Positions 15,830 to 20,572 of a stretch of DNA of 64,000 nucleotides are shown piece by piece. The notes under the pieces are model-generated. The model had not been told where the DNA came from. It ran no database searches and worked only from the letters and a program-made list of their open reading frames with translations. Numbering within the stretch: the first letter of the stretch is position 1; each line of letters begins with the position of its first letter. The position numbers were made by a program, and so were the translations under genes. This DNA is from Pelomonas caseinilytica (lineage in GTDB: Bacteria > Pseudomonadota > Gammaproteobacteria > Burkholderiales > Burkholderiaceae_C): positions 310,001-374,000 of the forward strand of contig NZ_JAJTWT010000005.1 of the NCBI RefSeq assembly GCF_021353235.1, in the 5' to 3' direction.

Positions 15830-16705
15830 TCACTTGAGCAGCTGCAGCACCTGCTGGGGCAACTGGTTGGCCTGGGCCACCATCGCGTTGCCGGCCTGCT
15901 GCAGGATCTGCGCCCGGCTCATGTTGGCGGTTTCCTGGGCGAAGTCGGCGTCCATGATGCGGCTGCGGGCGGCCGTCTGGTTCTCGACGGCGACCTGCAG
16001 GTTGGAGATCACGGCATCGAAGCGCGACTGGATGGCGCCGTAGGTGGCACGGGTGTTGTTCACCGCGTCCAGGGCCGTGTCGATGTTGTTGATGACGGTG
16101 CCCAGGGCGGCGAAGTCGGCCGTGTTGTCGATCAGCGCGGGGAAGGGCGTCGTGCCGGTGCCCAGCAGGGCCGTGACGGCCGGGTCCTGCGTCAGGTCCA
16201 GGGCCGTGACGGTGATGGAGTCGTTGGCCGTGGTGTTGGCGCCGATCTGGAAGGTCTGGCCGGTGCCCGCCGCCACGCCGGCCGTGTCGGCCAGGATGGG
16301 CTTGCTGTTGAAGGTCGTCGCGTTGACGATGCGCCAGATTTCGGAGCCGAGCTGCTCGAACTCCTTGTTCAGCGAGTCCTTGTCGGAGCTGCTGTTGGTG
16401 GCGTTGCGGGCCTGCACCGTCAGCTCACGCATGCGCTGCAGGTTGTCGCCGATCTTGCCGAGCGCGCCTTCAGCGGTCTGCGCCAGCGAGATGCCGTCGT
16501 TCGCGTTGCGGATCGCGACGTTCATGCCGCGAACCTGGGTGTTCATCCGCTCGGCGATGGCCAGGCCCGCCGCGTCGTCCTTGGCGGAATTCACCCGCAG
16601 GCCGGACGACAGGCGCTGCATCGACGTCGCGAGCGAACTCTGCGAGGCGTTCAGATTGCGCTGGGCGTTCAGCGAGTTGATGTTGGTGTTGATGGTTTGG
16701 GGCAT
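15830..16705 (-). CDS. fliC: Flagellin 3
   Basis: A 291-residue flagellin with conserved D0/D1 ends: INTNINSLNAQRNLNASQSS, LSSGLRVNSAKDDAAGLAIA and, at the C-terminus, ARSRIMDADFAQETANMSRA and QANQLPQQVLQLLK. The central ~60 residues are short, so the D2/D3 domains are minimal. The centre differs from the other two copies. CAGGAG lies 6 nt before the ATG. I could not find a convincing sigma-28 promoter in the 170-bp upstream gap, so it may depend partly on read-through from flagellin gene 2. Confidence 0.95.
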   Translation of the reverse strand: MPQTINTNINSLNAQRNLNASQSSLATSMQRLSSGLRVNSAKDDAAGLAIAERMNTQVRGMNVAIRNANDGISLAQTAEGALGKIGDNLQRMRELTVQARNATNSSSDKDSLNKEFEQLGSEIWRIVNATTFNSKPILADTAGVAAGTGQTFQIGANTTANDSITVTALDLTQDPAVTALLGTGTTPFPALIDNTADFAALGTVINNIDTALDAVNNTRATYGAIQSRFDAVISNLQVAVENQTAARSRIMDADFAQETANMSRAQILQQAGNAMVAQANQLPQQVLQLLK

Positions 16706-16829
16706 CGCGCACTCCTGGGGTCAGTCGCCGAGCCGGCTCTAAATGCCAGACTCGATGGACCGAATTCTGCGGATGCGCTGCCGTCCCAAAAGCCCGATCA
16801 AGGGCCCAAACCACGGCTATTCAAAGGCT

Positions 16830-16860
16830 CCGCGCCGCCACCTCCCGGTGCGCGGCGCGG
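16830..16860 (-). terminator. Probable terminator after flagellin gene 2
   Basis: A GC-rich hairpin with arms CCGCGCCGC / GCGGCGCGG extended by CACC / GGTG with one bulge, 16 nt past the stop. Only AGCCTTTG follows, so termination may be leaky. Confidence 0.55.
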
Positions 16861-16876
16861 GGGCTGCCCGGCGGCT

Positions 16877-17746
16877 TCAGCCGCCGCGCAGCAGGGCCAG
16901 CACTTGCTGGGGCAGCTGGTTGGCCTGGGCCACCATGGTGTTGCCGGCCTGCTGCAGGATCTGGGCGCGGCTCAGGTTGGCCGTTTCCTGGGCGAAGTCG
17001 GCATCCATGATGCGGCTTCGCGAGGCGCTCTGGTTCTCGACGGCTACCTGCAGGTTGGAGATGACGGCGTCGAAGCGGTTCTGCGAGGCGCCCAGGGTGG
17101 CCCGTTCGCCGTTGACCTTGTCCAGCGCCGTGTCGATGTTGGTGATGACCGTGTCGATCGTCGTGCCGGTGGCGGTGTTGTCGATGACAGCCCGGCCGGC
17201 GCCGGTGTTGTCCGTGCCGGCGACGGTCGTGATTTCCGTCGCGGTCGTCATGTTGCTCGTGACGATGTCGATGCGGTCGTTGGCGGTGGTGTTGGCGCCG
17301 ACCTGGAAGGTCTGGGTGCCCGACTCGGTGGCCAGCACGGCCTTGCCGTTGAAGGTGGTGCCGCCCAGCACGCGCTGGATTTCCTTGGCGAGCTCGCCGA
17401 ACTCCTTGTCGAGGGAGTCCTTGTCGGCGCTGGTGTTGGTGGCATTGCGCGACTGCACGGCCAGCTCACGCATGCGCTGCAGGGCGTCGCCGACCTTGGC
17501 GAGGGCGCCTTCGGCCGTCTGCGCCAGCGAGATGCCGTCGTTGGAGTTGCGGATGGCGACCTGCGAGCCGCGCACCTGCGCATTCATGCGTTCGGCGATG
17601 GCGAGGCCGGCCGCATCGTCCTTGGCGGAGTTCACGCGCAGGCCTGAGGACAGGCGCTGCATGGACACGGCCAGGGACGACTGTGACATCGCCGTGTTGC
17701 GCTGGGCATTCAGCGAGGCGAGGTTGGTGTTGATGACTTGGGGCAT
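16877..17746 (-). CDS. fliC: Flagellin 2
   Basis: A 289-residue flagellin. The ends are highly conserved (VINTNLASLNAQRNTAMSQS; DADFAQETANLSRAQILQQA). A central block rich in Thr, Ala and Asn (TATEITTVAGTDNTGAGRAV) is shared exactly with flagellin 1, suggesting a recent duplication or gene conversion. AAAGGA lies before the ATG at 17746, and a sigma-28-type promoter 72 nt upstream. The Thr/Ser-rich centre is the likely surface-exposed and possibly glycosylated part. Confidence 0.95.
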   Translation of the reverse strand: MPQVINTNLASLNAQRNTAMSQSSLAVSMQRLSSGLRVNSAKDDAAGLAIAERMNAQVRGSQVAIRNSNDGISLAQTAEGALAKVGDALQRMRELAVQSRNATNTSADKDSLDKEFGELAKEIQRVLGGTTFNGKAVLATESGTQTFQVGANTTANDRIDIVTSNMTTATEITTVAGTDNTGAGRAVIDNTATGTTIDTVITNIDTALDKVNGERATLGASQNRFDAVISNLQVAVENQSASRSRIMDADFAQETANLSRAQILQQAGNTMVAQANQLPQQVLALLRGG

Positions 17747-17817
17747 GACTCAATCCTTTCGTTGACGAGGGCGTCTGGTACGTAGTCCTCGAGTGAATCG
17801 CGAACCCGTTGAGATGC

Positions 17818-17845
17818 TTATCGTCGGCACGATGGATTGACTTGA
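17818..17845 (-). promoter_or_regulatory. Sigma-28-type promoter for flagellin gene 2
   Basis: On the minus strand, TCAAGTCA, 12 nt, GACGATAA (7 of 8 to GCCGATAA), 72 nt before the start codon. Confidence 0.7.
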
Positions 17846-17867
17846 ATCCTTTTTTCACACGGCGCCT

Positions 17868-17900
17868 AAAAAACGCCCCCCGCGCTGGCGGGGTGGCGTT
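17868..17900 (-). terminator. Intrinsic terminator after flagellin gene 1
   Basis: On the minus strand, AACGCCACCCCGC / GCGGGGGGCGTT with a 4-nt loop, followed by TTTTTT. It separates flagellin genes 1 and 2. Confidence 0.9.
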
Positions 17901-17981
17901 CAAGGTGCTTGTGCTGGTGGCGTGAGGGTGACCGTCTTCGCAGTGGACGCTTCACTCAGGGCCAGCGGTGCTGGCCCGGCT

Positions 17982-18845
17982 TCATCGAAGCAAGGACAGG
18001 ACTTGCGACGGAATCTGATTCGCCTGGGCGATCATCGCGTTGCCTGCCTGCTGGAGGATGTTGGCTCGGGAGAGGTTGGCCGTTTCCTGGGCGAAGTCGG
18101 CGTCGGTGATGCGGCTCTTGGCGGCGCTCTGGTTCTCCACCGAGATCTGCAGGTTGGAGATGACCTGGTCCATGCGGTTCTGGGCGGCACCCAGCGTGGC
18201 GCGCTCGGAGCTGACCTTGTTGATGGCGGTGTCGATGTTGGAGATGACGCCGTCGATCGTCGTGCCGGTCGCGGTGTTGTCGATCACGGCACGGCCTGCA
18301 CCGGTGTTGTCGGTGCCGGCCACGGTCGTGATTTCCGTCGCGGTCGTCATGTTCGAGGTGGCGACGTCGATGCGGTCGTTGCTCGTCACGTTGGCGCCGA
18401 CCTGGAAGGTCTGGGTGCCCGAGTCGGTGGACAGGATGGCGCGGCCGTTGAAGGTCGTGCCGCCCAGCACGCGCTGGATTTCCTTGGACAGTTCGCCGAA
18501 CTCCTTGTCCAGCGAGTCCTTGTCGGCGCTGGTGTTGGTGGCGTTGCGGGCCTGGACGGCCAGCTCGCGCATGCGCTGCAGCGAGTCGTTCACCTTGGCC
18601 AGCGCGCCTTCAGCCGTCTGCGACAGCGAGATGCCGTCGTTGGCGTTGCGGATGGCGACGTTGGAGCCGCGCACCTGGGCGTTCAGGCGCTCGGAGATGG
18701 CCAGGCCGGCGGCGTCGTCCTTGGCGGAGTTGACGCGCAGACCCGAGGACAGGCGCTGCAGCGAGGTGGCCAGCGACGACTGCGAGGCCGAAGTGTTGCG
18801 CTGCGCATTGAGCGACAGCAGATTGGTGTTGATGACAGAGGCCAT
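17982..18845 (-). CDS. fliC: Flagellin 1
   Basis: A 287-residue flagellin starting MASVINTNLLSLNAQRN. D0/D1 ends are conserved (SGLRVNSAKDDAAGLAISER; QANQIPSQVLSLLR), with a short central region. It shares the Thr-rich centre with flagellin 2. The ATG at 18843-18845 is preceded by GAAAGGAAG; a longer in-frame version starting at 18917 is rejected. It has its own sigma-28-type promoter, a long leader and a strong terminator, so it may be the main filament gene; that ranking is inference. Confidence 0.95.
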   Translation of the reverse strand: MASVINTNLLSLNAQRNTSASQSSLATSLQRLSSGLRVNSAKDDAAGLAISERLNAQVRGSNVAIRNANDGISLSQTAEGALAKVNDSLQRMRELAVQARNATNTSADKDSLDKEFGELSKEIQRVLGGTTFNGRAILSTDSGTQTFQVGANVTSNDRIDVATSNMTTATEITTVAGTDNTGAGRAVIDNTATGTTIDGVISNIDTAINKVSSERATLGAAQNRMDQVISNLQISVENQSAAKSRITDADFAQETANLSRANILQQAGNAMIAQANQIPSQVLSLLR

Positions 18846-19075
18846 GATGCGCTTCCTTTCAGCTTGAGATACCCGGCAATAGCGCCGGACGAAGACCCGA
18901 GTGCCCGGGTGCGGCACCCGTGCTGCTCCATCGAGCGCACCCTGCGGTGCGCCCTCCTGAGCGACGCCCGACGCCAGTCAACCGTTGAAGCCCGTGACGC
19001 CACCTGTGAACGGCGTCACACCACCTCGGCCTTCCAGCCGGACCACGAACCCGTTTGGCGAGTGCGTTGAGTTGG
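18846..19075 (-). promoter_or_regulatory. Long hairpin-rich leader of flagellin gene 1
   Basis: About 220 nt separate the sigma-28-type promoter from the start codon, against about 70 nt for flagellin 2. The leader contains CGGGTGC/GCACCCG near 18904-18920 and GCGCACC/GGTGCGC near 18935-18952. No ORF is convincing here. It may control translation or stability of the flagellin mRNA. The 442-bp gap from 18846 to 19287 holds this leader and two promoters. Confidence 0.45.
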
Positions 19076-19287: not shown

Positions 19288-19758
19288 ATGCGCGCTTCAT
19301 CGACCGCCCAACGCACGACCTCCCGCAACGGCCACCGTCCCGTCGCGGTCCCGGCCAACGACCCGGCGATGCTGCTGGCCCGCGCCCGCAACGCCGCCTA
19401 CGCGGAAGCCGCCAAGGGCAACCTCGGCGGCGGCCTGGGCGTGCTGTACGACGCATTGCAGGGCGAGCCCATGAGCCACGACCTGCTGTCTGACATGGCG
19501 GCCCTGCTGCTGGCCGCCGGCCGGCTGGAGCATGCCGCGGCTTATGCCGACCGTGCGCTGCAGGCGCGCACCCAGCACGGCCCCAGCCTCTACACCCTGG
19601 CCTTCGCCCTTTCGGGGCTGGGCCAGACGGACCGCGCCATCGGCGTGCTGACGGAACTGCAGAGCGGCGCCGGCCGCGACAGCCTGCAGGCCGAGGCGCC
19701 GGAACTGGTGCCCGTCGCCATGATCGAGCTCGAGCGGCTCAAGCGCGCCCGCGCCTGA
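19288..19758 (+). CDS. Small TPR-like protein next to flagellin genes
   Basis: A 156-residue predicted soluble helical protein with at least two TPR-like pairs: ARNAAYAEAAKGNLGGGLGV, LEHAAAYADRALQARTQHG and LYTLAFALSGLGQTDRAIGV. There is no signal peptide. Function is unknown. Its place between flagellin gene 1 and flhD, and a sigma-28-like promoter, suggest a late flagellar role such as a chaperone or export regulator. The frame is open 144 nt further upstream, but the ATG at 19288 fits the promoter. The downstream neighbour is the 265-bp folded element. Confidence 0.7.
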   Translation: MRASSTAQRTTSRNGHRPVAVPANDPAMLLARARNAAYAEAAKGNLGGGLGVLYDALQGEPMSHDLLSDMAALLLAAGRLEHAAAYADRALQARTQHGPSLYTLAFALSGLGQTDRAIGVLTELQSGAGRDSLQAEAPELVPVAMIELERLKRARA

Positions 19759-19821
19759 CACGGCCCGCCCTCCTCCCTCACGGGGCCCCGCCAGCGCAAG
19801 CTGCCGGGGCCCCGGTGCTAG

Positions 19822-20086
19822 CTAGTCCACTGCGTCGGGGAAATGGCACCCCCGTGAGGTCCCAAGCCGGCCCAATCAAGGCGCGAGGCGCAGCCGGGGT
19901 CGGGCCCCGGCGAGGCCGAGTAACGCCGAGTGGGCCGGCTTGGGACCTCACCCTGCGGGCCGGGGCGTAAAGGCAGGCATTCAGCGTTGCTCGTCGTTGT
20001 GGGTCCCGACCCACGGCCTCCTCGCGCCTTGCCTGCCTGCCTTTACGCCCCGGCGGGGGTGTCATTTCCCCGACGCAGTGGACTAG
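19822..20086. mobile_element. 265-bp folded palindromic element (MITE-like), upstream of flhD
   Basis: The outer 32-nt terminal inverted repeats 19822-19853 and 20055-20086 match at 31 of 32 positions (CTAGTCCACTGCGTCGGGGA...). Inside are two perfect 21-bp stems: 19854-19874 with 19931-19951, and 19959-19979 with 20034-20054, so the whole folds as a three-way junction. The two loops are diverged inverted copies of one another and share a perfect 12-nt complement (19877-19888 with 20020-20031). No coding potential is apparent. With flanks it fills most of the 493-bp gap before flhD; the remaining ~165 bp would hold the flhDC promoter, which I cannot pinpoint. Confidence 0.85.
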
Positions 20087-20251
20087 TGAGCGGCGCCTGC
20101 CCGACGCGCGTGTAGGAATTTCGCTGACAAGGCCTGCTCCGAAAGTGGACGCCGCGCACCGACAGAACCTGATATCGAAGAAGAAGAGGGGTCAACACAA
20201 TCCGTTTCACTGATCCGCAACGCCCCTCTACCTCTGAAACGGAAGCCCGCC

Positions 20252-20572
20252 ATGAACGCCGACCAAATGCTCGCCGAGATCCGTGAAGCCAACCTGTCCT
20301 ACCTGATGCTGGCCCAGAGCCTGATCCGCGCCGACCGCGAGCAGGCCCTGTATCGCCTAGGCATCAGCGAAGACACGGCGACCCTGATCTCCACGCTGAG
20401 CCCGGCACAGATCATGAAGATCGCTTCCGGCAACACGCTGCTGTGCGCCTTCCGCATGAGCGACGACCTGGTGTGGGGCCTGCTGACCAACCACAGCAAG
20501 CCGGGTGCGAACGAGAGCGTCAGCCGCCTGCACGCTTCCATCCTGATGGCCGGCCGCCACGAGCACGCCTGA
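20252..20572 (+). CDS. flhD: Flagellar master regulator subunit FlhD
   Basis: A 106-residue FlhD, the partner of FlhC in the FlhD4C2 activator that works with sigma-70 RNA polymerase at early flagellar operons. Recognisable blocks are IREANLSYLMLAQSLIRADR, AMYRLG-like ALYRLGISEDTATLISTLSP and FRMSDDLVWGLLTNH. Length and position before flhC (49-bp gap) fit. The 5' region carries the 265-bp folded element, which might influence expression. Confidence 0.95.
   Translation: MNADQMLAEIREANLSYLMLAQSLIRADREQALYRLGISEDTATLISTLSPAQIMKIASGNTLLCAFRMSDDLVWGLLTNHSKPGANESVSRLHASILMAGRHEHA

Follow-up and report, generated by a model that had tools for sequence, protein, structure and literature searches.

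What is the 265-bp structure that lies just upstream of flhDC, at positions 19822–20086 of a 64,000-nt stretch of Pelomonas caseinilytica DNA (the window), and does it serve the genes that it precedes? An earlier note, made from the sequence of the window, had described it as a non-autonomous mobile element of two inverted units or a structured RNA, and had considered a regulatory effect on flhDC. Our results point to a mobile element. The structure is probably a MITE-like non-autonomous DNA transposon of 259 bp, which would have inserted in this lineage into a CTAG site behind the terminator of the upstream TPR gene. This assessment includes the putative helper transposase and the role of the folded arms discussed below.

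The structure is a nested set of inverted repeats. An inverted-repeat search found an outer repeat of 38 nt (19817–19854 with 20054–20091; 92% complementary), within which the 32-nt outer arms pair at 31 of 32 positions when read from the sequence. Two inner stems follow, one of 24 nt in arm 1 (19854–19877 with 19928–19951; 96% complementary) and one of 21 nt in arm 2 (19959–19979 with 20034–20054; 100%). Search and folding thus bear out the terminal repeats, inner stems and inverted conserved loops of the earlier note. The + strand has a minimum free energy of −216.2 kcal/mol (z = −18), and none of 200 shuffled sequences was equally stable; the − strand folds at −208.2 (z = −16) and the element folded as DNA at −123.5 (z = −17). 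The three-way junction that had been proposed holds as a fold, but it is nearer to a four-way junction, because a mini-hairpin CCC-TGC-GGG (19951–19959) separates the two arms. According to cmsearch, the two arms represent a single conserved unit in opposite orientations (19861–19946 on the + strand and 19964–20047 on the − strand). This inversion accounts for the 12-nt complement between 19877–19888 and 20020–20031, which is indeed perfect (100%), so that the loop-to-loop pairing suggested for it is unnecessary and was dropped. The whole element is an imperfect palindrome of palindromes, with a 72% match to its own complement. A 95-aa ORF (− strand, 19778–20065) crosses it; this is a mechanical ORF with nothing pointing to coding. 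The features of the locus are as follows; the family letters are defined further on.

19781–19814, + strand: terminator hairpin of the upstream TPR gene, missing the T-tract of several relatives (inverted repeats; relatives; TPR by Pfam)
19823–19824: TA dinucleotide inside CTAG, left copy of the presumed target duplication (sequence; rule Y-TA-[element]-TA-R, from 41 + 7 + 3 distinct sites of families a, d and e)
19825–20083, + strand: whole non-autonomous element, family d, 259 bp (99% copy on contig C1 of the same genome, G000; probable boundaries G19825 and C20083)
19825–19853, + strand: left terminal inverted repeat, left strand of the outer stem (fold, inverted-repeat search)
19854–19951, + strand: arm 1, sense on +, with a variable stem, a conserved internal loop CAAGGCGCGAGG ... 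GTAACGCC and an apical hairpin at 19893–19911 (inverted repeats; covariance model, 73.3 bits)
19877–19888, + strand: conserved core CAAGGCGCGAGG of arm 1 (inverted repeats, arm alignment)
19951–19959, + strand: central mini-hairpin CCC-TGC-GGG (sequence; CCC-NNN-GGG in 55 of 65 double-arm spacers)
19959–20054, − strand: arm 2, sense on −, inverted relative to arm 1 (inverted repeats; covariance model, 86.2 bits)
20020–20031, − strand: conserved core CAAGGCGCGAGG of arm 2 (inverted repeats, arm alignment)
20055–20083, + strand: right terminal inverted repeat, right strand of the outer stem (fold, inverted-repeat search)
20084–20085: TA dinucleotide, right copy of the presumed target duplication (sequence, flank rule)
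20111–20131, + strand: motif TGTAGGAATTTCGCTGACAAG, conserved before flhD, 141 nt ahead of its start, and intact on the downstream side of the element (genus comparison, sequence)

Near-identical copies occur at unrelated loci. The own genome holds one further full copy, 99% identical, on contig C1, and five copies of a sister family (family a) that are pairwise identical at 265–267 of 267 positions. It also contains a paralog on contig C12 of the same architecture, whose loops are similar and whose stems differ, along with three outer hairpins of 44–45 bp that have no arms (C34, C37, C38). Short length (259 bp), non-coding sequence, terminal inverted repeats and near-identical copies at unrelated loci are all properties of MITEs. 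Together with the TA flanks and the two convergent arms, they support the mobile element of two inverted units that the earlier note had suggested. Arm-less hairpins of 44–56 bp that share their ends with the long elements were seen at L012, L013 and L014 of the own genome and at G001:C10:32989-33044. In our own reading, the ends of the L012 hairpin supply TAG stops to both converging reading frames.

Beyond the own genome, a DNA search with the element gave matches in 12 of 20 genus genomes, its own included. At E ≤ 0.01, a covariance model of one arm (R1), built from 39 sequences, matched all 20 genus genomes; with the stricter cut-offs of E ≤ 0.001 and E ≤ 1e-4, it matched 33 of 60 family and 53 of 274 class genomes, respectively. 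The arm counts, 29 in the own genome and up to 96 in one genome, are lower bounds, since the best 150 (genus), 75 (family) and 16 (class) first-look candidates were scored per genome. In G042, G044 and G287, arms were found in 74 of the best 75, 74 of the best 75 and 16 of the best 16 candidates scored, and their true copy numbers are probably higher than our counts. The earlier note had proposed such a whole-genome search by sequence and covariance model, and had held that a lack of other copies and of compensatory base changes would argue against a mobile or functional structured element; this outcome did not occur.

The exact core pattern was present in at least 120 stretches in named genomes. 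Among the 80 matches listed, the names were of Burkholderiales type (for example Rubrivivax, Rhizobacter, Pelomonas, Roseateles and Thiomonas), some were given only as ‘Betaproteobacteria’ or ‘Pseudomonadota’, and two as ‘Vitreoscilla sp.’. The family-a end TAGGG[CT]CTGTT preceded the arm in 11 of 20 stretches from 15 class genomes, read by eye. Related elements lie on plasmids of Azotobacter, Halomonas, Pseudomonas aeruginosa and Variovorax. The window element itself had no match among plasmids, the exact core had none in viral contigs, and a family-a element of the class (L350) had none in phages and E. coli genomes. The papers listed in our literature search included no description of this element family, and its end and core strings yielded no paper.

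We sorted the elements by their ends into families a–e, letters that are labels of this analysis only; the window element belongs to family d. The end strings include GGGCCTGTTMAC, CCTRGAAACGGCAGTTG (family b), GAAGSTGTGAA (family c) and GTCCACTGCGTC. Families a, d and e share flanks of the form Y-TA-[G...C]-TA-R. In family a, the left base is Y in 39 of 41 and the right base R in 36 of 41 sites, and CTAG occurs on both sides in just 17 of 41, which fits a TA duplication in YTAR rather than a 4-bp duplication. For family d of the window, the TA flanks likewise follow from the flank rule over distinct sites, and the TA duplication at the window copy is deduced from that rule. By the same rule, families a, d and e combine a preference for CTAG with TA duplication, as expected of IS630-derived MITEs. 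An empty-site comparison at L121 involved sequences too diverged to read the TA duplication.

The other families duplicate different targets. Family b shows a perfect 5-bp duplication in 14 of 16 copies with both ends in view; two of these 14 are nested in another repeat, which is present uninterrupted in L162. Family c, read on the arm-sense strand, has TCA on the left in 32 of 40 copies (TGA in 2) and on the right in 24 of 40 (TGA in 0), with the same trinucleotide at both ends in 22 of 40. We take family b to resemble IS1380, and the transposase-family labels given here to elements are in part our assumption.

Elements with these different ends and target duplications (TA, TNA or 5 bp) nearly always carry an arm 35–39 nt from the end. 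Counted from the base next to the duplication up to the arm, the spacing is 36–38 nt in all 29 double-arm and 35–38 nt in all 15 single-arm elements of family a, 36 nt in 5 of 5 of family d, 37–38 nt in 6 of 6 double-arm elements and 38 nt in the one single-arm element of family e, and 36 nt in 7 of 7 of family b. Family c has 37 nt in 36 of 40 elements and 35, 38 and 39 nt in three, with one of the 40 outside these four commonest values. An exception is a double-arm element assigned to family c (L020), at 28–29 nt. When the ends were located by complementarity only, independent of the known ends, the outer end of double-arm elements fell at 36–42 nt in 15 of 24 cases outside family a, and at 37–44 nt in only 13 of 29 cases in family a, whose outer stems are frequently imperfect. 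Overall length also varies little (in family c, 34 of 41 elements measure 159 bp), and adjacent arm pairs stand in + then − order in 87 of 89 cases.

Such an element would be mobilised in trans by an enzyme duplicating TA in CTAG, either a transposase of the IS630/Tc1-mariner type or one of the IS5 group. Less surely, the arm, formed on one nucleic-acid strand, may help mobility through end pairing, target choice or host-factor binding, and may form a scaffold that lies behind terminal repeats fitted to different transposases. The arm may also be dispensable for movement, because arm-less forms with the same ends exist.

A search for an autonomous partner with the same ends covered two transposase families, one exact end pattern in the genus and 312 loci, and found none. 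IS630 transposases (PF13358) numbered 0 in the own genome and occurred in 5 of 20 genus genomes, and the same figures apply to IS5-type helpers with PF13340. Neither type of helper was found in the own genome, and the 11 DDE_3 loci were devoid of the arm (one weak match, E 0.31). The exact end pattern TAGGGCCTGTTCAC gave no inverted pair wider than the element itself in the 20 genus genomes, and five end types at the 312 loci gave no pair wider than 450 bp. Three candidates were rejected. L259, with arms 2 kb apart, has no transposase among its ORFs in our own reading. At L247 (6373–7607), an IS with an IS5-family transposase (NF033580), ends GAGGGTGT and TGA flanks lies directly beside a family-c element, but the IS ends before that element begins. 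The IS630 of L360 (about 818–1999, Azotobacter chroococcum) looks like an independent insertion into the CTAG of the neighbouring element. As side observations, the L247 IS sits at the stop codon of a response-regulator-like gene, and its start and TGA flank resemble family c; the L360 transposase is bounded by CTAG and was apparently inserted at the CTAG end of a family-a element.

The arms are conserved as structures. The arm of ~85 nt has a stem that is variable and at least 14 bp long, mostly a purine–purine mismatch, and then a C–G pair that is invariant in the 39-sequence alignment. Further inward come the conserved loop AGGC / GNAAC and a middle helix that covaries, and the arm is capped by an apical hairpin, which is variable. 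In the alignment, 92.3% of stem cells are paired and the covariation score is 0.874, against 0.191 for shuffled and 0.10–0.16 for slid alignments, figures that are inflated because the 39 arms were chosen partly for having the stem. Column 18 is coupled to columns 69–70 outside Watson–Crick rules: the latter are AA in 14 of 36 arms with T18 versus none of 241 lacking T18 (Fisher 3e-14, with no correction for relatedness). Across its 34 elements of 159 nt, family c forms a single 66-pair hairpin that is 94.9% paired. Here 38 of 66 pairs changed on both sides, reaching the terminal repeats, versus 21.7 when shuffled, and the covariation score is 0.345 versus 0.145. A description of the stems within family c as conserved in structure only would be wrong for the core, where many columns are invariant.

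In family c, G.T wobbles outnumber A.C wobbles by 120 to 20, or by 73 to 13 when each of the 19 clusters is represented by a single element; two wobble-majority columns were left out. The ratio is 161:41 in arms found by the model (52:12 with one per cluster), and 59:31 pooled over 34 clusters (P 0.004; 31:19 with one per cluster) in arms found by the core only. Since the asymmetry weakens once stems no longer contribute to ascertainment, part of it in the model-found arms reflects ascertainment. The excess of G.T indicates that single-strand folding of the arm-sense strand is under selection, most clearly in family c. The structured RNA of the earlier note is therefore partly upheld, in that covariation is strong and the fold is selected on one strand in family c. 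However, the folding strand of family c is antisense to flanking tandem genes in 28 of 32 cases (28:4), so that a role as part of an mRNA is unlikely there and a mRNA-borne element is not favoured. Action as single-stranded DNA or as a separate RNA is left open. In single-arm elements of family a, the strand is sense to tandem genes in 7 of 9.

Placement relative to genes, called by a codon-usage script, raises an alternative explanation. Elements with distinct flanks numbered 174, of which 3 are located within genes and 12 were excluded (missing flank, or gene more than 600 nt away). The remaining 159 comprise 101 in tandem, 33 in convergent and 25 in divergent gaps, compared to 154, 37 and 75 of 266 background gaps. 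A gene 3′ end lies within 3 nt of the element end in 23 of 44 elements of family a, 31 of 41 of c, 3 of 7 of e, 2 of 5 of d and 1 of 7 of b, and a gene 5′ end is also within 60 nt in 27 of 44 (a) and 19 of 41 (c). Many copies of families a and c abut stop codons and recreate them, as TAG from the duplicated TA plus the first G of the element in family a, and as the duplicated TGA in family c. The elements might thus be useful to the host at 3′ ends, as bidirectional terminators or as protectors of mRNA 3′ ends of the REP kind, kept after they had spread. The excess in convergent and deficit in divergent gaps would fit this idea, as would the very stable folds and the median distance of arms to gene 3′ ends (38 nt, n = 167, versus 83 nt to 5′ ends, n = 151). 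Yet 25 of the 159 elements occupy divergent gaps, the opposite strand biases of family c and single-arm family a leave no consistent RNA strand, no T-tract terminator was recognised in 19700–20260, and the upstream gene here already has its own terminator hairpin. We consider a host function of this kind unlikely. If the elements are transposons, a preference for CTAG or TGA combined with ends that rebuild TAG or TGA would make insertion at gene ends nearly harmless.

Even less probable is a repeat of the REP/REPIN type, mobilised by a Y1 (RAYT) transposase that acts on single-stranded hairpins. Single-strand-specific folding and hairpins at gene ends would suit it, and all 20 genus genomes have Y1 transposase matches. 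Repeats flanking the Y1 gene would then be expected, but no arm was found at any of 30 Y1 loci at E ≤ 0.2 (the two weak matches had E 0.26 and E 0.48). Moreover, target duplications of 2, 3 and 5 bp point to DDE enzymes, and the arms are far larger than REPs.

A structured cis-regulatory RNA of flhDC, suggested by the strong fold and the location before flhD, is the most improbable reading of all, given that no arm precedes flhD in 18 other informative genus genomes, that the element lies upstream of a conserved motif near −140 and that the same element occurs at unrelated places. The downstream genes were confirmed as FlhD and FlhC by Pfam. Comparison of flhDC loci with and without the element, as the earlier note had proposed, found arms only at the window locus among the 20 flhD loci of the genus; the contig of G013 (L116) ends at flhD, which leaves the 18 other genomes with the upstream stretch. 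Relatives have the terminator hairpin of the upstream gene, in several cases with a T-tract, and beyond it the motif TGTAGGAATTT..TGACAAG, located 123–145 nt before flhD in 16 of 20 loci. In the window, the element sits between hairpin and motif, and the T-tract is gone. This position, together with the absence from 18 relatives, does not support an flhDC leader element or the regulatory effect once considered. The motif at 20111–20131 is possibly the flhDC promoter or operator. The element is most likely a neutral passenger for flhDC, with a mild effect on read-through still conceivable; the scan of 19700–20260 recognised no promoter either. The motif reads TGTAGGAATTTNNCTGACAAG, and in our own reading L114 and L119 carry much the same motif inverted. 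Elsewhere in the window (15830–18917, − strand) lie three flagellin-like ORFs in a row, one of them confirmed by Pfam.

Bacterial MITEs are usually regarded as passive leftovers of one IS. In the transposon family described here, a folded core outlasts the stem sequences, matches across the class, holds its distance to the ends and accompanies several kinds of target duplication. The new part is this shared strand-specific folded core with nearly fixed end spacing across different end types. Tentatively, and with rather more doubt than we attach to the transposon itself, one ancient folded scaffold might serve unrelated transposases. The arm 35–39 nt from the end would be a conserved, strand-specific insertion module (aligned in family c with the TCA/TGA target strand), and the outer ~15 bp would be swapped to hire enzymes that duplicate TA, TNA or 5 bp, in a class-wide superfamily that settles on and rebuilds stop codons. 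A core that took part in mobility would amount to a structural code common to different transposases, and one acting as RNA or single-stranded DNA would represent a widespread structured family without an Rfam match in the stretches scanned. In addition, the elements exemplify low-cost settling at stop codons.

Several known systems share some of these properties. Like Rfam structured RNA families, the elements have conserved loops and covarying stems; unlike them, they gave no match over the gathering score in the window, and sub-threshold matches only in the window stretch and in 10 loci. They resemble REP, BIME and REPIN sequences with their RAYTs, as far as excerpts of the literature describe these, in having abundant, extragenic, inverted palindromic units, and differ in size, in target duplications and in the absence of arms at the 30 Y1 loci. 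MITEPsy1 of Pseudomonas syringae targets CTAG/YTAA and thus shares the CTAG target, and ISPsy19 (IS5 family, 3-nt duplication) begins with GAGGGTGT, which resembles some family-c ends (excerpts of PMC3189936). However, MITEPsy1 is 100 nt long with a 4-nt duplication, and a folded core is unmentioned in those excerpts. ISY100, of the IS630/Tc1-mariner type, inserts at TA, which is duplicated, and the reference list of the same paper cites the preference of IS630 for TA in CTAG (PMC2170065, in excerpt). Like MITEs of the IS630/Tc1-mariner type, the window element is short, with inverted ends and an apparent TA duplication in YTAR/CTAG. It differs from them in that no partner IS was found in the own genome, and in its conserved, covarying double-arm core of constant geometry.
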